Source of the DNA: a virus
Length of the DNA stretch: 32,771 nucleotides
Direction: 5' to 3' (one strand)
Virus record (IMG/VR): IMGVR_UViG_3300044941_000097
Coordinates: 1 to 32,771 of that record
Position 1 is the first letter of the stretch. Each line of letters opens with the position of its first letter. The notes beneath the pieces are model-generated. The model worked only from the letters and a program-made list of their open reading frames with translations, was not told where the DNA came from and did not search any database. Shown here piece by piece: positions 11,272-32,720 of this stretch. The position numbers were made by a program, and so were the translations under genes.

Positions 11272-11634
11272 ATGGGCAACAAGAACAAGCCGGTGACGGA
11301 CACCGAGCAGCCGCCCGCAGCGACCACGCCGGCCGGCCCGGACACGCAGCCGGACACGACCGACCCTAACACCGCTCCGGATCAGGCCGAGACGCCTGAC
11401 ACCGAGCAGCCGCCCGCAGCGACCACGCCGGCCGATGGTGCCGATGGCGAGCCGCAAGCCGAGCCCGAGCCCGACTACGTCAGCGCCAAGACCGGCGGCA
11501 TCGCCTACGAGGGCCAGGTGCTCCCCTTCACCCGGGGACAGCCGGTGACCGATCCCCTGCTGCTCGCCCACCTGAAGGCGAACAACTGGCCCCTGATGAC
11601 CGCACAGCGCTGGGCGGCGCTGAACGAGGAGTAA
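11272..11634 (+). CDS. Pro/Thr/Asp-rich head-associated protein with internal repeat
   Basis: 120 residues. I start it at ATG 11272 (GGAGG upstream) because an earlier in-frame ATG at 11221 lies before and inside the terminator hairpin. Residues ~9-65 are a disordered acidic Pro/Thr tract containing two copies of TEQPPAATTPA, encoded by an exact 37-bp direct repeat. The C-terminal ~55 residues (YVSAKTGGIAYEGQVLPFTRGQPVTDPLLLAHLKANNWPLM) look folded. Genes in this slot between capsid and connector often encode small head or neck proteins. The specific role is unknown. Confidence 0.6.
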   Translation: MGNKNKPVTDTEQPPAATTPAGPDTQPDTTDPNTAPDQAETPDTEQPPAATTPADGADGEPQAEPEPDYVSAKTGGIAYEGQVLPFTRGQPVTDPLLLAHLKANNWPLMTAQRWAALNEE

Positions 11635-13422: not shown

Positions 13423-14865
13423 ATGGCTATCGTTTCTTCCGTCACCGGCCGGGCGCTGCCTGGCGTCTATATCCTGCAGGTGGACCCGCCGCCGCAGGCC
13501 AACCTCAACGTCGGCACCGGTGTCGGCGTGCTCGTGGCCGAGGCCAACTGGGGCCCGGTCAACACGGTCACTCAGGTCACCAGCCTGGCGGAGTACATCC
13601 GCAAGTTCGGCAACAAGGGCAACGGCTTCGCCCAGGCCTACGGCTTCTTCCAGGGTGGCCAGAAGTCCGGCATCAACGGCGGCGGCGCCGACCTGCGCAT
13701 GATCCGGGTTGCCGGTACCAGCCAAGCCTTCGCCACCAACACCCTGGTCGACAACGCCGGCACGCCGGCCATCGTTCTGACGGTGACCGCCAAGTTCCGG
13801 GGCACCCGGGGCAACGACATCCAGATCCAGTGCATCAAGAACGACGGCACGTTCGATCTGCTCGTCATCCCGCCGGATGGTCTGCCGCCGGAGTCCTTCC
13901 GAGGGCTGACCAAGGCGACGGCCGCCGCAGCCGTCAACGGCGTCTCGGAATGGGTGACGGTGGCGGCGGGCGTCTCCAACCTCCTGCCCGAGCCCTCGAC
14001 CTCGTTCCTGTCGGGTGGCAATGACGGCACCTCCGCCGATGCCGATTACGTCGGTGTGGCGGGCCCGCCGGCCACCGGCCTCGAGCTGGCCAAGACGATC
14101 ACCGACGGCAACCTGCCCTTTACCGGCAAGCAGTCGGCGGCGATCAAGACGGCGCTCTCGACGACCAGCAGCGTCCTGCTCGGCGTGGGCATCGCCGGCC
14201 CCAACGACGAGAACGTCACCACCGCCGCCGCCATCACCGATCAGGCGTTCAACAACGAGTACCTGACCTACTGCTACAGCTACATCACCTGGCTGAACCC
14301 GGTGACCAAGGCCGTCGAGACCGTCTTCCCGGCTGGCGACATCGCCGGCGCTCTGGCCAACGGCGAGTACTGGCAGAACCCGACCGGGATCCGGATCAAC
14401 CGGGCCCTGGCCGTGGCCAACCCGGTCAGCGATCCGGTGGCCGAGACCCTGGCCAAAGCGGGGATCAACGCCATCACCAGCGGGCGCACCGGCATCATCC
14501 TCCGCTCGGGCCTGAACACCTCGACCGACGCCAGCAAGAACCAGGCCGACGACACTCGGATCCGCACCTACCTGGCCAAGGTGCTCGACGAATCGCTGCT
14601 GACGCAGTGGTCGAAGCCGCTCACCGACGACTGGTACGACGACACCAAGTCGCTGATCGACGGCATCTTCGACGCACAGCCCGACGAGGTGATCCGCCGC
14701 CGGGCGGGCCAGCCTGGCCATGCGGTGAGCTTCGACAAGAGCTTCGAGGCCCAGAACCGGGTGGTCATCTACATCCAGGCGATCATCACGGGCAAGGCGC
14801 TCCAGATTATCGTCAACGCCCAGATGGGCCGCACCGTCTCCCTGACCATCGCCAGCGCCGCTTAA
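13423..14865 (+). CDS. Contractile tail sheath protein
   Basis: 480 residues from ATG 13423, with AAGGAGG upstream. N-terminal PGVYILQVDPPPQANL leads into the GVGVLVAEANWGPVNTVTQVTSLAEY pattern typical of sheath proteins, followed by a protruding domain and a conserved C-terminal core (DDTRIRTYLAKVLDESLL, AVSFDKSFEAQNRVVIYIQAIITGKA). Sheath subunits polymerise around the tube and contract to drive it through the cell envelope. This gene makes the phage a myovirus. The length is normal for the family. Confidence 0.92.
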   Translation: MAIVSSVTGRALPGVYILQVDPPPQANLNVGTGVGVLVAEANWGPVNTVTQVTSLAEYIRKFGNKGNGFAQAYGFFQGGQKSGINGGGADLRMIRVAGTSQAFATNTLVDNAGTPAIVLTVTAKFRGTRGNDIQIQCIKNDGTFDLLVIPPDGLPPESFRGLTKATAAAAVNGVSEWVTVAAGVSNLLPEPSTSFLSGGNDGTSADADYVGVAGPPATGLELAKTITDGNLPFTGKQSAAIKTALSTTSSVLLGVGIAGPNDENVTTAAAITDQAFNNEYLTYCYSYITWLNPVTKAVETVFPAGDIAGALANGEYWQNPTGIRINRALAVANPVSDPVAETLAKAGINAITSGRTGIILRSGLNTSTDASKNQADDTRIRTYLAKVLDESLLTQWSKPLTDDWYDDTKSLIDGIFDAQPDEVIRRRAGQPGHAVSFDKSFEAQNRVVIYIQAIITGKALQIIVNAQMGRTVSLTIASAA

Positions 14866-20236: not shown

Positions 20237-20529
20237 CGGACCTGTTCTGCGACGACGACTTCGAGCTCGACGGGGCGGGCTACCTGCGCACGGCCACCAC
20301 CGTGGAGAGCGTGCGCCAGGAGATTGGCCGCCTGGCTGAGGAGGCCGGGTGGGTGGCCGCGCCCGTCGCACCGGCGCTGGCCGCTGACATCCAGGCCCGG
20401 ACGCTGGCGCTGCTCCGGGAGCATCCCGGCGTCTCCGCTCCGGAAGCCGTCAGCGTCGTCCAGGAGTCGGGCGGCGAAACCTACATTCGAGCGGCGTTTG
20501 ATGGCCAGCTGGCCGAGGTGAACCTGTGA
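20233..20529 (+). CDS. Baseplate wedge-like protein (XkdS/gp25 position)
   Basis: 98 residues from ATG 20233, overlapping the spike stop by four bases. The middle (SVRQEIGRLAEEAGWVAAPVAPALAADIQARTLALLREHPGVSAP) and the end (GGETYIRAAFDGQLAEVNL) have the small alpha/beta pattern of XkdS- or gp25-type proteins, which sit between spike and J genes in contractile-tail phages. Position is the main support. It is coupled to the J gene through a GTGA overlap. Confidence 0.6.
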   Translation: MTDLFCDDDFELDGAGYLRTATTVESVRQEIGRLAEEAGWVAAPVAPALAADIQARTLALLREHPGVSAPEAVSVVQESGGETYIRAAFDGQLAEVNL

Positions 20530-21620
20530 CGATCAAGGATGCGAGCTACCACGAGACCCAACTGCGCACCGGTCTGGTGGCCCGGCTGGGCCGGCTCAAG
20601 TTCCGCACCTGGGACACTCTGTCCGCCCTGGTGTCGGCGCTGGCCCGGCGGCTCGGCGAACAGTCGGCGACGGCCGCTCAGATTGTCAGCGACTTCTTCA
20701 TTGGGTCAGCGACGGGAACCGCACTCGATCGGCGGGGTGTCGGCAACGAGGGCAGCGCCCGCAAGGCGGCCGTCGGCAGCGTCGGCACGGTCACCGTGAC
20801 CCGGCCGGCGGGTGGCGGGGCGATCACGATCCCGGCCGGAACGCTGACCTTCGGCACCGTGCCCGATGCCAAGGGCAACCGGATCAGCTTCGCCACCACC
20901 GAGGCGCTGACGATGGGCGCCGGCGTCACCTCGGCCCCCGTGGCGGCCGCCTCCATCACGACCGGCCTGGCGGCAAACATCTCGTCGGGGACTCTGCTGC
21001 AGATCACCTCCAACACCCCGCTCGTCACGGGGGCGACAGCAACGGGCAACTTCACCGGCGGCGACGACATCGAAAGCGTCGAGGCCTACCGGGTGCGCCT
21101 CCGATTGCTGGCCCAGTCCCGGGCCAAGGCGACGGGCGATGCGCTTCTGGCGGCCGTGCTGGGCGTGAACGGCGTCGCCTTCGCCCGGGTGATCGACCAA
21201 CCGGCGAGCAACCCGCCGGTGCTGATCTATGCCGGCAACTCGTCCGGGCTGCTGCCGGCGCCGCTGGCCACCAGCGTTCAAGCGGCGGTCAATGCCGTCC
21301 GGGCCCAGGGGATCGCCCCCAGCTACTCGGCGCCGGTGACGGCCACCTTCAACCACACGCTGCAGCTGGTACTCGATGCCGGGGTGGCCATCGACGTCAC
21401 CAGCCTGCGGGCGCAGATCCAGGCCGACATCGCCGCCTACGTCGAGAGCCTGAACCTGACGACCGACCGGACGCACCGGATCAACCGGGTCCGGGACATC
21501 GTGATGGGCTACAAGCGCCTCGGTGTGCTCGACCTGGTCGACGCCAGCCTGCTACCGGCGGCCAACCAGACGCTGACGGATAACCAGATGGCGGTGATGG
21601 GGATCATCACATGGCTCTAA
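20526..21620 (+). CDS. Baseplate J-like protein
   Basis: 364 residues from GTG 20526. It carries the baseplate J signature: FFIGSATGTALDRRGVGNEGSARKAAVGSVGTVTVTRPAGGGAITIPAGT (residues ~58-107), the central FTGGDDIESVEAYRVRLRLLAQSRAKATGDALLAAVLGVNGV, and a C-terminal domain (TFNHTLQLVLDAGVAIDVTSLRAQIQADIAAYVESLNL). J proteins form the wedges that trigger sheath contraction. It overlaps the I gene by ten bases. Confidence 0.9.
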   Translation: MTIKDASYHETQLRTGLVARLGRLKFRTWDTLSALVSALARRLGEQSATAAQIVSDFFIGSATGTALDRRGVGNEGSARKAAVGSVGTVTVTRPAGGGAITIPAGTLTFGTVPDAKGNRISFATTEALTMGAGVTSAPVAAASITTGLAANISSGTLLQITSNTPLVTGATATGNFTGGDDIESVEAYRVRLRLLAQSRAKATGDALLAAVLGVNGVAFARVIDQPASNPPVLIYAGNSSGLLPAPLATSVQAAVNAVRAQGIAPSYSAPVTATFNHTLQLVLDAGVAIDVTSLRAQIQADIAAYVESLNLTTDRTHRINRVRDIVMGYKRLGVLDLVDASLLPAANQTLTDNQMAVMGIITWL

Positions 21621-25134: not shown

Positions 25135-25652
25135 GCGGGGCCGCCATCGCCAGGTCGCCTGTCTGCGGCGTCGAGGTGCGGGCCATCGGCTGCGGCGTCT
25201 CGGCCCCAACCGTCGCTCAGTGGGTCGATCACGTCTATTTTGAGTTCGGCCGTGGGCTGGCCTTTTGGCGCCGGCTAGCAGGCGTGCGGGTCATCGAGCC
25301 CAATCACCCCGAGGCGCCGGCCCGGATGCGCTACTCGGCCACCAACACCAACCCCGCCGAGGGCCTCTACGATCCGGCGACCCGCCTCGTGTGGGTCAGC
25401 TCGCAGGCCGACGTGTGGGCCGTGATGGTCCACGAGATCGGGCATCACCTCCAGTACGAGTGCCGCTGCCTGCCGGATGGGTCGCCCGGCGGCCGTGCCC
25501 TGCTGGCCCTCTACGGTGCGCTGACCAACCGGCCGAGCGCCGAGTGGGTCGAGTGGATGGCCACCGACTTTCGCCGGGCGCTGTTCGAGTCCCGGCCTTT
25601 CCCTGGTGCCGTGCAATTTTTCCACGCCGTCGCTGCGGCAGGAGGTTACTGA
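25131..25652 (+). CDS. HExxH zinc-metallopeptidase-like protein in the lysis cassette
   Basis: 173 residues from GTG 25131, overlapping the holin stop (GTGA). The motif VMVHEIGHH places HEIGH at residues 101-105, with an extra His at 106. A third ligand of the gluzincin type could be E141 in the following helix (SAEWVEWMATDF), giving an Exx(A)xxF pattern like minigluzincins and ImmA/IrrE-type peptidases. The N-terminal part has paired cysteines (C12, C21) and a basic helix (FGRGLAFWRRLAG). It lies between holin and M15 peptidase, a place usually held by endolysin or spanin genes. The role is inferred from motif and position; the substrate is unknown. Confidence 0.6.
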   Translation: MSGAAIARSPVCGVEVRAIGCGVSAPTVAQWVDHVYFEFGRGLAFWRRLAGVRVIEPNHPEAPARMRYSATNTNPAEGLYDPATRLVWVSSQADVWAVMVHEIGHHLQYECRCLPDGSPGGRALLALYGALTNRPSAEWVEWMATDFRRALFESRPFPGAVQFFHAVAAAGGY

Positions 25653-26095
25653 TGCGCCTATCGACGCACTTTACACTGGCCGAGATGACCACGAGCGAGA
25701 CGGCGGCGCGGCGGGGATTGCCCAACAATCCCGGCCCCGCCGAGTTGTCGAACCTGCGGCGCATGGCCAACCTGCTGGAGCAGATCAGGGCCAAAATCGG
25801 CGGGCCGATTGTGATTACCAGCGGATACCGGGCGCCGGCCGTCAATGCCGCCGTCGGCGGCTCGCCGAATAGCGACCACATGCAGGGCCGTGCTGCCGAT
25901 TGCCACCGACCAGGCCTGACGATGCGGCAGTTTGCGGAGCGGATCGTCGCCAGCGGCGTGCCGTTCGACAACCTGATTTTAGAGTTCGACTCGTGGGTAC
26001 ATATCGCCGTCGCGTCCGAGGGGGCAACGCCCCGCCGGCAGGTTGGCACGATCAGCGCCCGCACCGGCGGCAAATGGCGCGCCGGATTGCTGTAG
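25652..26095 (+). CDS. Endolysin-like M15 peptidase (D-Ala-D-Ala/L-Ala-D-Glu type)
   Basis: 147 residues. ATG 25652 overlaps the previous stop (TGATG). It shows the Peptidase_M15_3 signature: SGYRAPAVNAAVGGSPNSDHMQGRAAD (residues 57-83) and WVHI (115-118), giving the zinc ligands H76, D83 and H117. The N-terminus (LSTHFTLAEMTTSETAARRGLPN) is the typical lead-in. Such enzymes cut peptide bonds in peptidoglycan and act as phage endolysins. No cell-wall-binding domain or signal peptide is present, so export would rely on the holin. Confidence 0.9.
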   Translation: MRLSTHFTLAEMTTSETAARRGLPNNPGPAELSNLRRMANLLEQIRAKIGGPIVITSGYRAPAVNAAVGGSPNSDHMQGRAADCHRPGLTMRQFAERIVASGVPFDNLILEFDSWVHIAVASEGATPRRQVGTISARTGGKWRAGLL

Positions 26096-26104
26096 GAGAT
26101 CAAC

Positions 26105-28141
26105 GTGAGCGGCCCAACCTACGTCCCTGACGTGATGCACTGCGGCGAGCTGATCCCCACTGGCACCGTCACATTGGCCGATAACAGGCGGTCGGCCGTG
26201 CTGGCCGCGGGCGCCTCGCTGCGCTCTCGCTGGGTTCGCCGGGGCGGGACGGCGCTCAGCACGTTTGCGGCGCTCGGCGCTGGCCTGACGCTGCGGGGCC
26301 GCTCGTCGGCGTCGCTGCCTCCCGGCATCGGCGATGACATGCCGCTACAGCCGGGCGCGAGTCAGTGGCTGCACAAATACGACGCCTCGCTCAACACGTT
26401 GCCGAGTTCGCAGGGTTTCAGCCGGGTCGGCAATTTCAGCAACGGCAGCGGAGCGGGCGTCGTCAGTGGTGGCGCATACACGATGACCACCACCGCCGCC
26501 TCTGCCTACTGGATTGTTAACCCGGCCAACTGGTCACGGGCCAACGACGTGATCATCGAGCGCCTGGGCCTACGGATCAACACCGGCCACCAGACCCGGT
26601 TTGAGCTGTACCTGGATGACGGCGCTAACCGCCGCATCGTCGAATGGCGCGGCACGGGCGCCAACAACCGCACGCTATGGGTTAACAGCGTGCAGGTCGA
26701 GGGCTACCAGTGGGACTATGACATCTGGTACGACCTGATCCGCGTCACCCGCTACAGCGGCAGCACCGTGACCAGCAGCAGGGTGTATGTGCGAGCCCGA
26801 GGCACTGGTACAACAGTGGATTTGACCGGCCTCGTGCAGATCAATGGCGGCGTCCAGCCCAGTGTGGTGGCGCTCAATACCTGGATTTTTGGCGCCGTGA
26901 CTGCTGGCACAATCAATGTTTCGGTCGATTTCCTTGGCGCCTGGCAGGGTGCCGAGTGGGCGACGACGGCCCCGACCCGCGAGTGGGTACAGTTCGAGCT
27001 GTCCAACCCAACCGGCAGCCCGATCACCCTGACCGGCGTGGACCTACGCTCCAACACAGCAGCCCCGACGGCGGCCACGGTCGGCACGATCGGCGCCCTC
27101 GGTAGCAACGCCCTCGGCGTCATCCTCAACCCGGCAGCCGGTACCGAGGCGATCCGGGCTGACCTGTACGACGGGCCTACCCTCGTCGCCACCGACGGCC
27201 GCTACGTCACCGGCACCGATCCCGTAGGCCTGGCGTTCGGCGATCTGGCTGCGGGCTCGTACACCGTCACCGCCTACCCGATCAGCGAGGATGGCGTACC
27301 CGGAAACAGCGTGACGAGCGGCACCCAGGCCCTGCCACCCGTGGCGCCCTCGGTGGCCCTGGTGCGCTCAGCGGCCACGCTGGCCGCCGGCGAATCCTCC
27401 ACCATCACGCCCACGCTCAACGGCGGGGCGACCGCCACCCTCGACGGCGTGGCCCTCGTCGACGGCGAGCCGGTGACCAACGCCACGGCGACCGCCGGCA
27501 GCCTGATCGGTCCCACGGCGCCCGTACCGCAGATCCGCCAGGCGCCAGTCCACCCACAGCCTCAGATCCGATGGAGCGACCCTGACATGCAGATCGTCTA
27601 CTCGGCCACGCAGCCGACCAGCTACACGCTGCAGCGCAAGGCCGTCTCCAGCTCGACCTGGTCGACAGACGCCACCCAGGCCACCAACCCGGTCAACGTC
27701 TCGGTGCTGGCCTACGACGGCACCACGCCGGGCGTCTCCGTGGCCACCAACCACGGCTGGACGCTCGACACGAGCGGGGCCTACGAGTACCGGCTGCTGC
27801 CGACCTACGCGGACGGCAGCATCGGCCAGCCGAGCAACGCCCTGATCCCATCGGACCGGGAGGCGTTCGAGGTGACCGTGTCCGGACGGGTCGACGAGCA
27901 GCACGTCGGCAAGTCGGTTCGGGCCCAGCTCGATCAGCTGGTGGTCGTCGGCGGCCAGGAGTACCTCACCCAACGGTACGAGGCGACTGTCGCCACTGAC
28001 GGGACGTGGGCGATCCACGGCCTGCCCGCGGGGACCCCGGCGGCGGTGGCCGTGTTCCAGTTCCCGGACGGCAGCCGCGCCCGCCGCGCGCTGCCCACCG
28101 CCGCCGGGTCGGCCTCGTTCGCCGGCCTGGTCGCACCCTGA
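26105..28141 (+). CDS. Large beta-rich appendage/fibre-like protein
   Basis: 678 residues from GTG 26105, with GTAGGAGA upstream. Residues ~95-300 resemble a concanavalin/laminin-G-like sandwich (ERLGLRINTGHQTRFELYLDDGANRRIVEWRGTG, then NISVDFLGAWQG-like strands). Residues ~300-480 include Ig-like repeats (FELSNPTGSPITLTGVDLRSN; LVRSAATLAAGESSTITPTLNGGA). The C-terminal region has a fibronectin-like module (YTLQRKAVSSSTWS ... YEYRLLPTYADGS) and a closing beta domain (VSGRVDEQHVGKSVRAQLDQ). It lies after the lysis genes and before attP, a place favoured for late-acquired surface genes. It may be a decoration or receptor-binding protein; the domain calls are by pattern. Confidence 0.55.
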   Translation: MSGPTYVPDVMHCGELIPTGTVTLADNRRSAVLAAGASLRSRWVRRGGTALSTFAALGAGLTLRGRSSASLPPGIGDDMPLQPGASQWLHKYDASLNTLPSSQGFSRVGNFSNGSGAGVVSGGAYTMTTTAASAYWIVNPANWSRANDVIIERLGLRINTGHQTRFELYLDDGANRRIVEWRGTGANNRTLWVNSVQVEGYQWDYDIWYDLIRVTRYSGSTVTSSRVYVRARGTGTTVDLTGLVQINGGVQPSVVALNTWIFGAVTAGTINVSVDFLGAWQGAEWATTAPTREWVQFELSNPTGSPITLTGVDLRSNTAAPTAATVGTIGALGSNALGVILNPAAGTEAIRADLYDGPTLVATDGRYVTGTDPVGLAFGDLAAGSYTVTAYPISEDGVPGNSVTSGTQALPPVAPSVALVRSAATLAAGESSTITPTLNGGATATLDGVALVDGEPVTNATATAGSLIGPTAPVPQIRQAPVHPQPQIRWSDPDMQIVYSATQPTSYTLQRKAVSSSTWSTDATQATNPVNVSVLAYDGTTPGVSVATNHGWTLDTSGAYEYRLLPTYADGSIGQPSNALIPSDREAFEVTVSGRVDEQHVGKSVRAQLDQLVVVGGQEYLTQRYEATVATDGTWAIHGLPAGTPAAVAVFQFPDGSRARRALPTAAGSASFAGLVAP

Positions 28142-28205: not shown

Positions 28206-28212
28206 TAGACGA

Positions 28213-28246
28213 GAGCCCCTGTCCCTCACGGGATGGGGGCTCTTTT
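28213..28246 (+). terminator. Rho-independent terminator of the late operon
   Basis: Stem GAGCCCC (28213-28219) with GGGGCTC (28236-28242), with inner pairing TCCC/GGGA, followed by TTTT. It ends rightward late transcription just before attP. Confidence 0.85.
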
Positions 28247-28312
28247 CGTCGTTTGGGGTGGGTAGCCCGTGGCAAGATGCTACCCCAGTTGCTACCCAGG
28301 GCAAAGGTCACT

Positions 28313-28347
28313 GAAAAAGCGACCGGGCTATATGTCGCTCGGTCGCT
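28313..28347 (-). terminator. Minus-strand terminator following the tRNA-Cys 3' half
   Basis: Reading the minus strand, AGCGACCG (28347-28340) pairs with CGGTCGCT (28325-28318), followed by TTTTT. It begins about ten bases after the tRNA CCA end, so it can end transcripts of the tRNA gene rebuilt on integration. Confidence 0.7.
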
Positions 28348-28357
28348 GAGTTCTGGT

Positions 28358-28409
28358 TGGAGGCGGCACCCAGATTCGAACTGGGGGTGAGGATTTTGCA
28401 GACCCCTCC
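28358..28409 (-). other. attP core: 3' half of a tRNA-Cys(GCA) gene
   Basis: On the minus strand the sequence gives an anticodon loop with CTGCAAA (anticodon GCA, 28399-28397), the T arm CCCAG-TTCGAAT-CTGGG, the acceptor strand TGCCGCC, discriminator T and CCA (ending at 28358). A U discriminator is a mark of tRNA-Cys. The matching 5' half (GGCGGCA..., D arm) is absent, so this is not a functional tRNA. Phages that integrate into tRNA genes carry the 3' half to restore the gene. The right boundary of the core is approximate. Confidence 0.85.
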
Positions 28410-28552
28410 GGCCCCACGGCAGGCAACCGCTTGCCCGAAAATGCTTTCTAAGCCGTCTTGTGCTCAGCGGGTTTCAGCGGCTAACCTGGGCTTACCGTTG
28501 CCTATTGGTGATGGCAGGATGCTACCCCGGTTGCTACCCCAGGAACCCCACC

Positions 28553-29740
28553 ATGGCCAAGACCCGTGCCGGTACCGAGTTTACTGCCCGCTGGCTGGAC
28601 CGTGTCCCCCTGCCGGCCAGCGGCCGCGAGGAGCACTGGGACGCGATCGTCCACGGCCTGGGCCTGCGGGTGTCGGCGACGGGGCACAAGTCCTGGTTCG
28701 TCATCTTCCGCCCGGATCCCAAGAAGTCGGCGGTGAGGGTCACGCTCGGCAGCTACCCCGCCATGTCCCTCCTCGAGGCGCGCGATGCCGCCCGGGCGCG
28801 CATCGAGCTGGACCGTGCCCGGGCCTCCGATGACCACGCCGGCCTGACCGTCGAGCAGATGGTGCGGGAGTACTTGGAGACGTGCGCCAAGCCCCAGCTT
28901 CGCCCTAGCAGCCTCAAGCGCATCTCCCAGATCCTGCGCACGGACGTAGTGCCGGCGATGGGCGATCGGCTGGCGGCCGACATCAAGCGGCGGGACGTGA
29001 TCGCCTGGGCGGAGCGGATCAAGGAGCGGGGCGCACCCGTCCAGGCCAACCGGGCCATCGCCGTGCTGCGACGGGTCTACAACTGGGCCATCTCCAAGGA
29101 CATGATCGAGGTGAACCCCTGCGCCCAGGTCAAGAAGCCGGCGCAGGAGTCCTATCGGGATCGGGTGCTCACCGAGGGCGAGCTCCGCGCCGTCTGGCGC
29201 TACCTCGACCAGGAGGAGCCGACCATCGCCGCCCTCTTCCGCCTGCAGATCCTGACCGGCCAGCGCGGCGGCGAGGTGCGCAGCATGCGCTGGGAGGACG
29301 TCGACCTGCGCACGTCGGTCTGGACCATCCCCGCCGCCCAGTCCAAGAACCGGCTGGCCCACCGGGTGCCCCTGACGGCGCCGGCGATGGCGATCCTCGA
29401 AGGCCTCGGCGCTTCGCCCGATTCGAAGGGACCGGTTATTCCCGGCGGCAAGCCGCACAAGCGCCCGGAGCTCGCAGGCGAGGTCCCGCTATTCAACCCG
29501 TACAAGGCCGTCGAGCGGGTGCGGCAAGGCAGCGGAGTCGATTTCGTTCCCCACGACCTGCGCCGGACGGTGGCCAGCTACATGGCCCAGCTCGAGATCA
29601 GCGAGGAGACGATCGGCAAGGTGCTGAACCACGCACCGGCGACCATCACCTCGCAGCGGTATATCCGCCACGGCTACGACAAGCAGAAACGCGAAGCGCT
29701 CGACCTGTGGGCCGAGCGCCTGATGGCCGTCGTGGATTAG
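28553..29740 (+). CDS. int: Tyrosine-recombinase integrase
   Basis: 395 residues from ATG 28553. An upstream in-frame start at 28460 would translate the att-arm repeats and is not used. The N-terminus (FTARWLDRVPLPASGREEHWDAIVHGLGLRVSATGHKSWFVIFR) is a P4-type arm-binding domain, followed by a SAM-like core-binding domain (LTVEQMVREYLETCAKPQLRPSSL). The catalytic residues are R238 (LTGQRGGEVRS), H334 and R337 (PHDLRRT), H360 (LNHAP) and probable nucleophile Y370 (RYIRHGY). It integrates the phage at the tRNA-Cys site 150 bases upstream. Confidence 0.92.
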   Translation: MAKTRAGTEFTARWLDRVPLPASGREEHWDAIVHGLGLRVSATGHKSWFVIFRPDPKKSAVRVTLGSYPAMSLLEARDAARARIELDRARASDDHAGLTVEQMVREYLETCAKPQLRPSSLKRISQILRTDVVPAMGDRLAADIKRRDVIAWAERIKERGAPVQANRAIAVLRRVYNWAISKDMIEVNPCAQVKKPAQESYRDRVLTEGELRAVWRYLDQEEPTIAALFRLQILTGQRGGEVRSMRWEDVDLRTSVWTIPAAQSKNRLAHRVPLTAPAMAILEGLGASPDSKGPVIPGGKPHKRPELAGEVPLFNPYKAVERVRQGSGVDFVPHDLRRTVASYMAQLEISEETIGKVLNHAPATITSQRYIRHGYDKQKREALDLWAERLMAVVD

Positions 29741-30117
29741 GTCCCGTGCTGGGCGACGACAGTATTGATCCAGGCATTCAGGCTGACGCCCTCCCGGTCG
29801 GCCCGGGCCGTCACATCCCGATGAAGAGCCTTAGGCATCCGCAAGGCGAACTTGCCTGAGAAGCCGGCTTCTGGTGCAGGCTCCGGAATCTCCGCACCAT
29901 CTTCGATCGCATCTTCGATCCAGAGTTCGAGGCTGGTCTTGACCGACTCGATCGCCGCTGTCGGTGTGTCGCCACCGCCGCTGATCCGAGGGACTTCAGC
30001 GACCCGCGCCGCCCAATACGGGCCGTCAGCGTTTTCCGCCGGCCGCACCTGATAGGTGTAGGGCAGGCTCATGTAGTAGGCCAGATCCTTTGCCCGCTGA
30101 GGCGTCTTCGTAGCCAT
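29737..30117 (-). CDS. hicB: HicB antitoxin
   Basis: 126 residues on the minus strand, start at 30117 with GGGAGGGG upstream. An N-terminal part with PYTYQVRPAENADGPYWAARVAEVPRISGGGDTPTAAIESVKTSLELWIEDA is the degenerate RNase-H-like HicB fold. The C-terminus (KFALRMPKALHRDVTARADREGVSLNAWINTVVAQ) is a ribbon-helix-helix DNA-binding domain. HicB blocks HicA and represses the operon. It is the second gene of the pair, 11 bases after hicA, and its end overlaps the integrase stop in the opposite direction. Confidence 0.88.
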   Translation of the reverse strand: MATKTPQRAKDLAYYMSLPYTYQVRPAENADGPYWAARVAEVPRISGGGDTPTAAIESVKTSLELWIEDAIEDGAEIPEPAPEAGFSGKFALRMPKALHRDVTARADREGVSLNAWINTVVAQHGT

Positions 30118-30128
30118 GTTCCCCTCCC

Positions 30129-30371
30129 TTACTCGCCGTCCAAAGCGGCGAGGCAATCCTTCACCAAGTCCTCGTGAGCGTGCTTCTTGCCGCCGTGGGG
30201 GATAACACCGATGATCGTCGGCTGGCCAGCCTTCTTGAACTTGCAGTGGCTGCCGCCCTTGGCGGTCTTCAGATCCCAACCGAAGTGCGTCATGACCGTG
30301 GCCAGGTCATCAAAGCGAACCGCCTTGGGATTGTTGCGGATCCCGGCGATCAGCTTCTCGATCTTGGCCAT
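30129..30371 (-). CDS. hicA: HicA mRNA-interferase toxin
   Basis: 80 residues, minus strand, start 30371 with GGGGAGG upstream. It has the HicA dsRBD-like pattern: a first helix (IEKLIAGIRNNP), then AKGGSHCKF with catalytic His42, a strand (PTIIGVIPHGG) and a final helix (HEDLVKDCLAAL). HicA toxins cut mRNA and are neutralised by HicB. In a phage this module can stabilise lysogeny or act in defence. An inverted repeat in the promoter region suggests autoregulation. Confidence 0.85.
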   Translation of the reverse strand: MAKIEKLIAGIRNNPKAVRFDDLATVMTHFGWDLKTAKGGSHCKFKKAGQPTIIGVIPHGGKKHAHEDLVKDCLAALDGE

Positions 30372-31237: not shown

Positions 31238-31523
31238 CGGCGATCTTCTTTTCGACGTACTCAGTCACTTGGCGGTGCACGGCCTGATTGTTCTTCCTGA
31301 ACAGTTCGTAGATCGACCCGATCAGGGCCATGGCGTTTGCGGCTGCCACCTTTTCCGGGTGGGCCTGGTTGTCAGTGATTGCCTGTAGCGTCAGCTTCCG
31401 CAGCTGGTTGTAGTTCTCGTTGATGACCTCGGCAATCTCGGCGTCACTTAAGCCGAAATACGGCAAATCCTCGCCGGCGCCTTGAGGATCTTCGCCACTC
31501 GGGTCTGCCACCGTCCAGCTCAT
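31218..31523 (-). CDS. Helical protein of the repressor operon, unknown
   Basis: 101 residues, minus strand. Its ATG (31523-31521) overlaps the repressor stop as ATGA, and its end overlaps the next gene by 20 bases. An acidic N-terminus (DPSGEDPQGAGEDLPYFGLSDAEIAEVINENY) is followed by two long helices (KLTLQAITDNQAHPEKVAAANAMALIGSIYELFRKNNQ; VTEYVEKKIADAQ). No family is recognised. Tight coupling to the repressor suggests expression in lysogens, perhaps as an exclusion or regulatory protein. Confidence 0.5.
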   Translation of the reverse strand: MSWTVADPSGEDPQGAGEDLPYFGLSDAEIAEVINENYNQLRKLTLQAITDNQAHPEKVAAANAMALIGSIYELFRKNNQAVHRQVTEYVEKKIADAQQSP

Positions 31524-32356
31524 TGGCCCTCCACGTGCCCGACGACGATCCCGACCACGTCGAAGGGGCGATTGAACTCGTCGATCGGCTCCTCGAAGCC
31601 ATCGCCTGCGCCTTGGAGGATGCCGACGATGCTGTCGCCGTGCCGCTCCTTGGTCAGCGTCTTGCAGGTGTAGCTGCCGTCGTCACGGTAGCGGGCGATC
31701 ACCTCGCGGCCGGACGGCACGCCGCGGCGCCAGTCGGGCGGGGCCTTTTTGACCAGGAGATGCGAACCTGGCGTGAAGCCGAGGCCCAGCATGGAATCGC
31801 CGCGGATCAACACCGCATGGTCGGCCCCCTTGGTGTCCGCGACCTGGAGCTCGCCAACGGGCTCTTCATCGGTGTCGGCGCCGAAGCCGCAGGCGACCTC
31901 GCCGAACACGAGCAGCTTGCCGGGCTTGGTGCGGGTCACGGCGGCGACGGCAGCGAGGGCCGTCTGACGCTTGCTGGGTATAGGCGCGGGCCGGGCTGGG
32001 GCTACGGCGGGCGGGGCCGTCTCGGCCGGCGGGTCGGGCCGGTTCACCCGGTGGTAGAGCTGCGTCCACTCGTCGAGGGACTTGCGCTCGGCCACGATCT
32101 CGGCGGCGGCTTCGAGCTCCTGGTCGTCGAGGCGGTCGCGGAGGGCTTCCCGCTTCAGATCTTCGACACCCACGCCAAGGACTGGAGCTAGCTTTTCGAT
32201 GGCATCGTCGCCCGGCAAAACGAGCTTTCCAGAACGCGTGCGGCCGGTTTCAAGGTCAGAAAGAAAGCTGCGGCTTAGTCCGGACAGCTGCGCGACGCGG
32301 TAGGCGGTAAGCCCTTTGGCTTCCCGTGTCGCTTTCAGCCACTCACCAAACCGCAT
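31520..32356 (-). CDS. CI/LexA-type phage repressor (HTH plus S24 peptidase)
   Basis: 278 residues, minus strand, start 32356 with GAGGG upstream. A longer frame upstream would cross the operators and is not used. Residues ~3-70 are an XRE helix-turn-helix (LTAYRVAQLSGLSRSFLSDLE), then a Pro/Ala linker (105-130) and an S24/LexA-like C-terminal domain. The cleavage pair is C156-G157 (VACGFG), with catalytic S188 (GDSM) and K232 (TCKTL). RecA-stimulated self-cleavage at Cys-Gly, as in UmuD, would make induction SOS-dependent. It faces the Cro-like gene across four operator-like sites. Confidence 0.88.
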   Translation of the reverse strand: MRFGEWLKATREAKGLTAYRVAQLSGLSRSFLSDLETGRTRSGKLVLPGDDAIEKLAPVLGVGVEDLKREALRDRLDDQELEAAAEIVAERKSLDEWTQLYHRVNRPDPPAETAPPAVAPARPAPIPSKRQTALAAVAAVTRTKPGKLLVFGEVACGFGADTDEEPVGELQVADTKGADHAVLIRGDSMLGLGFTPGSHLLVKKAPPDWRRGVPSGREVIARYRDDGSYTCKTLTKERHGDSIVGILQGAGDGFEEPIDEFNRPFDVVGIVVGHVEGQ

Positions 32357-32385
32357 CCACAAGCCCTCTGTCCAAAGCTTACCCC

Positions 32386-32470
32386 TTGCGTACGTCAAAA
32401 AACATACTGATCGACAGTTGACGTACGGCCGTCGGTTGTCGTACAACCGATGTACGGCAATTGTCGAACG
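32386..32470. promoter_or_regulatory. Divergent lysogeny-switch region with four operator-like sites
   Basis: Between repressor and Cro-like genes, four copies of TTGNCGTAC occur: 32386-32398 (minus strand reading TTGACGTACGCAA), 32418-32430 (TTGACGTACGGCC), 32436-32448 (TTGTCGTACAACC) and 32448-32460 (minus strand reading TTGCCGTACATCG). A degenerate fifth copy is at 32461-32469. The third lies in a larger palindrome (CGGTTGT/ACAACCG). A rightward promoter TTGACG (32418) with TACAAC (32442) at 18-base spacing would be covered by these sites. A leftward -10-like TATGTT lies at 32406-32401. Confidence 0.65.
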
Positions 32471-32480
32471 GAGGTAATCG

Positions 32481-32720
32481 ATGCCCGTGATTAAGCAGGC
32501 ACGGCTTCTGGCGGGCTTCACGCACCGGCAGGCTGCCGCTGCAATCGGTGTCGACAAAGACACGATCGTCAAGTACGAGCGGCCCGGCCGCACCAACTTC
32601 AGCACCGACATCCTCACCCGCATGGCCGACGAGTACGGCAAGCGCATCCCCGGCGGCCTGACCGTCGACCAGCTCCTCGGCCGGGCCCCCCTGACGGAGG
32701 CCGCCGATGTCGGGGCGTGA
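32481..32720 (+). CDS. Cro-like XRE regulator
   Basis: 79 residues from ATG 32481, with GGAGG upstream. A helix-turn-helix is visible at residues ~14-34 (THRQAAAAIGVDKDTIVKYER), with a third helix (DILTRMADEYGKRI). It is divergent from the repressor, across the operator cluster, as Cro is in lambdoid switches. It probably represses the repressor promoter and supports lytic growth. It overlaps the next frame by 14 bases. Confidence 0.8.
   Translation: MPVIKQARLLAGFTHRQAAAAIGVDKDTIVKYERPGRTNFSTDILTRMADEYGKRIPGGLTVDQLLGRAPLTEAADVGA

Follow-up and report, generated by a model that had tools for sequence, protein, structure and literature searches.

Comparison with described integration systems

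In the standard scheme of integration at tRNA genes, the tRNA is rebuilt by a core made of its 3′ half, which is accompanied by adjoining arm sites and an integrase gene (int) (PMC10865867, PMC4383910). The window analysed here, an entire IMG/VR virus record of 32,771 bases, very probably contains an attachment site of this known general type. Actinobacteriophage attP sites, such as that of Boilgate, typically have cores of 30-45 bp (PMC10865867). In Boilgate, as in the window, a tRNA 3′-half core lies immediately upstream of int and is flanked by putative arm sites, and the tRNA is rebuilt at one junction, but the tRNA is tRNA-Lys there and tRNA-Cys here (PMC10865867). Similarly, the 'A' site class of Islander, with its anticodon-centred attP, has a 3′ tDNA fragment with identity from the anticodon arm; however, Islander maps integrated islands (PMC4383910), whereas the window presents the unintegrated side. 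In tRNA-dependent lysogeny, a short core (~10 bp) is combined with a cognate phage tRNA gene (PMC10865867). In contrast, the core in the window is 50 bp and would itself rebuild the tRNA, and neither ARAGORN nor a T-arm scan found another tRNA gene in the fragment.

The closest systems differ in how the tRNA is oriented relative to int. The E. coli P4-type islands argW-intS (CPS-53) and leuX-intB resemble the window in having a tRNA 3′ end as target and a related tyrosine integrase, with the start of int 160-260 bp from the tRNA. In these islands a whole tRNA lies beside int on the same strand, with its 3′ end facing int, whereas the half in the window lies on the opposite strand and faces away. 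Achromobacter phage Mano and Pseudomonas phages Persinger and Dolphis, with integrases 28-32% related to that of the window, share with it a tRNA sequence that lies upstream of int and is encoded opposite to it. In contrast to the half in the window, Mano and Persinger carry at the attP position, opposite int, a complete tRNA-Lys (L222 801-875) and a complete tRNA-Arg (L223 708-786), respectively. These two tRNAs are candidates for tRNA-dependent lysogeny or for an extended core.

A tRNA-Cys 3′ half flanked by arm-type repeats

From 28407 to 28358, the minus strand reads AGGGGTCTGCAAAATCCTCACCCCCAGTTCGAATCTGGGTGCCGCCTCCA, 50 bases that comprise an anticodon arm, variable loop, T arm, 3′ acceptor strand, U73 and CCA (Table 1). 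Only the 3′ half of the tRNA is present, and it contributes the single T arm detected by scanning the window. A complete tRNA-Cys(GCA) gene in an Oscillatoriales MAG (7 Mb genome) is identical to the half at 45/45 bases up to U73 (E 1e-16), and that of MAG STE_202 is 96% identical over 48 bases, CCA included; the likeness to tRNA-Cys is thus not a matter of chance. In a sample of 292 genomes from the phylum of the Oscillatoriales MAG, 211 matched the phage half, and the best matches ran from about tRNA position 26-28 to U73. The half thus shares identity with known tRNAs only as far as window position 28407. When the 5′ halves of three real bacterial tRNAs were joined to the phage 50-mer, a perfect cloverleaf resulted each time, indicating an intact half from which a tRNA would be rebuilt. 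The tRNA-Cys gene of the host would be expected to end in ...CCCCCAGTTCGAATCTGGGTGCCGCCTCCA. Cyanobacteria are not claimed as the host on the strength of the good tRNA-Cys match, as the best alignments end at U73 and the phage carries CCA. Exact and loosened tRNA-Cys 3′-half patterns gave no matches in viral contigs.

A first-pass annotation of this DNA had placed attP in the 3′ half of a tRNA-Cys, U73 and CCA included, between the late terminator and int, and both the identification and the position are borne out. Its limits of 28358-28409 need correction on the right, to 28407, and the half takes in the whole anticodon arm. The search of bacterial genomes that it proposed returned matching tRNA-Cys 3′ halves (100% over 45 bases and 96% over 48); attL and attR products of this phage, a host genome and an integrated copy were not found in the collections searched. 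To the right of 28409, where a tRNA 5′ half would have spoken against attP, there is none, and the 5′ part that ARAGORN draws from there is mispaired.

Table 1. Features of the putative attachment site and of the genes around it, in window coordinates
Feature	Position	Strand	Details
Endolysin	25265..26095	+	peptidase M15; marker of the phage late region on the left
Last late gene	26105..28141	+	678 aa, no family hit
Late-operon terminator	28212..28247	+
Putative P arm	28260..28297	+	tandem TGCTACCC at 28278 and 28290 (12-bp period); inverted GGGTAGC at 28260
Hairpin + T5 terminator	28313..28347	-	directly after the tRNA 3′ end; same placement in 4/9 relatives
Probable attP core	28358..28407	-	3′ half of tRNA-Cys(GCA), anticodon arm to U73 + CCA; read directly, tRNA matches
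Putative P′ arm	28512..28539	+	28-nt repeat with tandem TGCTACCC at 28520 and 28532, directly upstream of int
Tyrosine integrase (int)	28553..29740	+	Arm-DNA-bind_3, Phage_int_M, Phage_integrase
CI-like repressor	31520..32647	-	HTH + S24; marker of the immunity region on the right

The core is flanked by two 28-nt direct repeats (28270-28297 and 28512-28539) that are identical at 26/28 positions (93%); a direct repeat this good arose in 0/500 first-order Markov shuffles of the region. The motif TGCTACCC occurs four times in the window, always within these repeats, two copies in each at a distance of 12 bp. Tandem arm-like pairs with an 11-12-bp period, several of them TGnTACCC, also recur just upstream of int in many relatives. 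Putative arm-type sites are therefore present on both sides of the core. The adjoining int encodes all three expected domains, for arm binding, core binding and catalysis. Rightward from the late terminator, the order is P arm, minus-strand hairpin-T5, core, P′ arm and int. A core that is only the 3′ half of a tRNA, arm-type repeats on both sides of it and a position between late genes and a tyrosine integrase gene together identify an attP. We consider it very probable that it belongs to a temperate contractile-tailed phage in non-integrated form, which targets a host tRNA-Cys gene by means of its tyrosine integrase.

The minus-strand terminator consists of a hairpin at 28347-28318 (-18.9 kcal/mol) followed by T5 at 28317-28313. 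It was not listed by a simple terminator scan, probably because of one mismatch in the stem. The first-pass annotation had called it phage-borne; it is real on the minus strand and lies on the phage side, which is all that the term conveys.

Layout of the integrase relatives

Integrase relatives mostly share 30-46% identity with the window's int, and those at 33-46% come from the genomes of a single small class that belongs to the phylum of the Oscillatoriales MAG. Relatives were also found in 80 virus records, of which the nearest (L136) has 69% identity. The L136 record starts with the first codon of int and therefore lacks the att region, and the parts compared have little in common with the window beyond int. 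Where a locus extended far enough upstream of int, both strands were scanned for T arms with a perfectly paired stem, followed by a check for the 5′ acceptor strand. Upstream of int, 41 of the 52 loci surveyed carried such a tRNA sequence, which in 39 of the 41 was a 3′ half encoded opposite int at a distance of about 170-310 bp. The window fits this pattern: its T arm is also encoded opposite int, 184 bp upstream. The two loci with tRNA sequence on the int strand, a half in L147 and a complete tRNA in L166, are kept as exceptions. None of the integrase relatives was found to use tRNA-Cys. A tree built from 101 integrases separates the window's relatives from a group formed by the two E. coli proteins and three phage integrases; the reversed layout occurs across the rest of the tree, with the two exceptions.

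If the site is used as proposed, then an integrated prophage would carry host DNA between its late genes and int, as the first-pass annotation had reasoned, and nine integrated virus records among the relatives bear this out. Each has a half beside int and, at the int-distal end, a complete tRNA with its 3′ end pointing into the element. In seven of the nine, the int-side half is identical to the tRNA 3′ half over 44-50 bases with no mismatch, starting at tRNA position 27-31; in the other two it matches over 45 bases at 96% and 84%. Two of the identity blocks have essentially the extent seen in the window, 50 bases counted from tRNA position 27. The rebuilt tRNAs are Thr-TGT (twice), Thr-CGT, Lys-CTT, Lys-TTT (twice), Ala-GGC, Arg-CCT and Gly-CCC. 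By analogy with these nine records, the phage of the window should rebuild tRNA-Cys at its late-gene end. Additionally, in four of the nine a hairpin and T run follow the rebuilt tRNA directly on the element side, as in the window, so the terminator of this phage likely serves to end the transcript of the rebuilt tRNA before it enters the prophage.

These comparisons raise the possibility that a large family of phage tyrosine integrases, spread across many tRNA isotypes, keeps a fixed reversed layout, in which the half faces away from int, the tRNA is rebuilt at the int-distal end and the element often supplies a terminator. We advance only tentatively, as somewhat doubtful, the idea that this is a lineage trait, determined by how arms and core are arranged and not a product of chance, and perhaps undescribed. 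Any novelty of the site would lie here. No account of the int-distal, opposite-orientation layout as a lineage trait was found in the literature covered, which does not include Williams 2002. The comparison offers a simple way of testing, across relatives, what determines tRNA orientation in attP. It also gives a rule for mapping prophage ends in this integrase family, namely to seek the whole tRNA at the int-distal end.

Two of the genomes (G009 and G018; L117-L127) have six or seven integrase matches each, several of them from the window's integrase family. These integrases adjoin halves of different tRNAs (Phe, Leu, Lys, Pro and Val, as read from the anticodon loops), a record of repeated insertion at various tRNA genes of the same host.

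Proposed integration and alternative explanations

For integration, the tyrosine integrase would bind to the tandem TGCTACCC arm sites on either side of the core, and strand exchange with the host tRNA-Cys gene would take place in the anticodon region of the core. The late-gene end of the prophage would thereby acquire a junction of the host 5′ half with the phage 3′ half, and the displaced host 3′ half would land beside int. The restored tRNA-Cys would read into the prophage, where the phage's own terminator may stop its transcript. The half and its boundaries, the arms, the terminator, int and the gene order were observed in the window, and the integrated products in relatives, whose example suggests that this phage uses the site in the same manner. 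For an otherwise orphan phage, the class of integration site and the junctions expected in a lysogen are thus fixed.

Integration at 28358-28407 would leave the late genes at one end of the prophage and int at the other. As they are joined here, the record is not a single integrated prophage, and this part of the first-pass annotation, which had read continuity across attP as the mark of a circular, virion or permuted genome, stands. Circularity itself is not supported. The proposed check for a circular source contig met a linear record in which comparison of the ends found no terminal repeats, and tandem prophages would fit as well. A circle, a concatemer, packaged DNA and a tandem-prophage junction are all compatible with the record, which cannot separate them. 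That the record derives from tandem prophages in a lysogen is nevertheless improbable. By the logic of recombination, the junction of two copies would resemble attP, so that continuity is no proof of an excised or packaged genome, and the lack of end repeats is consistent with this. However, a double lysogen would be required, the 32.8 kb hold no recognisable host sequence, and virus-enriched or induced DNA appears to be a simpler source.

The two remaining explanations are more improbable still. The tRNA sequence might be a worn-out remnant of past recombination that no longer serves in integration; yet the half is undecayed, and the arms, their spacing and the intact int match the working layout of the relatives, which makes this very unlikely. 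Least credible of all, with scarcely any probability, is a working phage-encoded tRNA-Cys gene at 28358-28428, where ARAGORN reported a 71-nt tRNA-Cys. Mano and Persinger, with their related integrases, do have complete tRNAs at the same place and on the same strand. In the ARAGORN call, however, two acceptor positions are mispaired in the 5′ part, the D stem is only 3 bp long and conserved D-loop bases are missing, and an Rfam search of the region gave no tRNA at E<=1. The full-length call was therefore rejected as spurious, and automatic tRNA finders can evidently report attP halves as complete tRNAs. An attP in non-integrated form remains by far the preferred reading.

Ends of the record and gene neighbourhood

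The two ends of the record do not overlap, and both appear to lie in early or immunity regions. The left end cuts an open frame (1-328) with a DnaC-like Walker B stretch, VVLDDFG, and no Pfam hit, and at the right end a divergent HTH gene (32481-32720) adjoins the repressor. The missing part of the genome is therefore probably the early region. The true start of the repressor probably lies inside its frame.

In collections of phages, viral contigs and genome contigs, no close relatives were found by DNA or by integrase alone. Scans with the major capsid and sheath proteins found no relatives, and those of the terminase were all at about 40% or less, without related integration modules. To the left of attP lie genes for terminase, portal, major capsid, tape measure, sheath, baseplate wedge and endolysin, followed by the late terminator; to the right of int are HicA/HicB-like genes and then the CI-like repressor. 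The tail sheath and baseplate wedge genes (13423-14865 and 20526-21620) show a contractile-tailed phage, despite a terminase closest to those of Streptomyces SV1-like phages (about 41%) and a capsid closest to those of Komagataeibacter phages (37%). Between int and the repressor, the minus strand at 29737-30371 encodes a HicB-like antitoxin (HicB family, E 5e-13) and a HicA-like toxin (E 2e-6), likely a toxin-antitoxin pair carried by the phage. Additionally, an exact direct repeat of about 37 bases (11299-11335 and 11398-11434; 99-bp spacing) is present in the late gene region.
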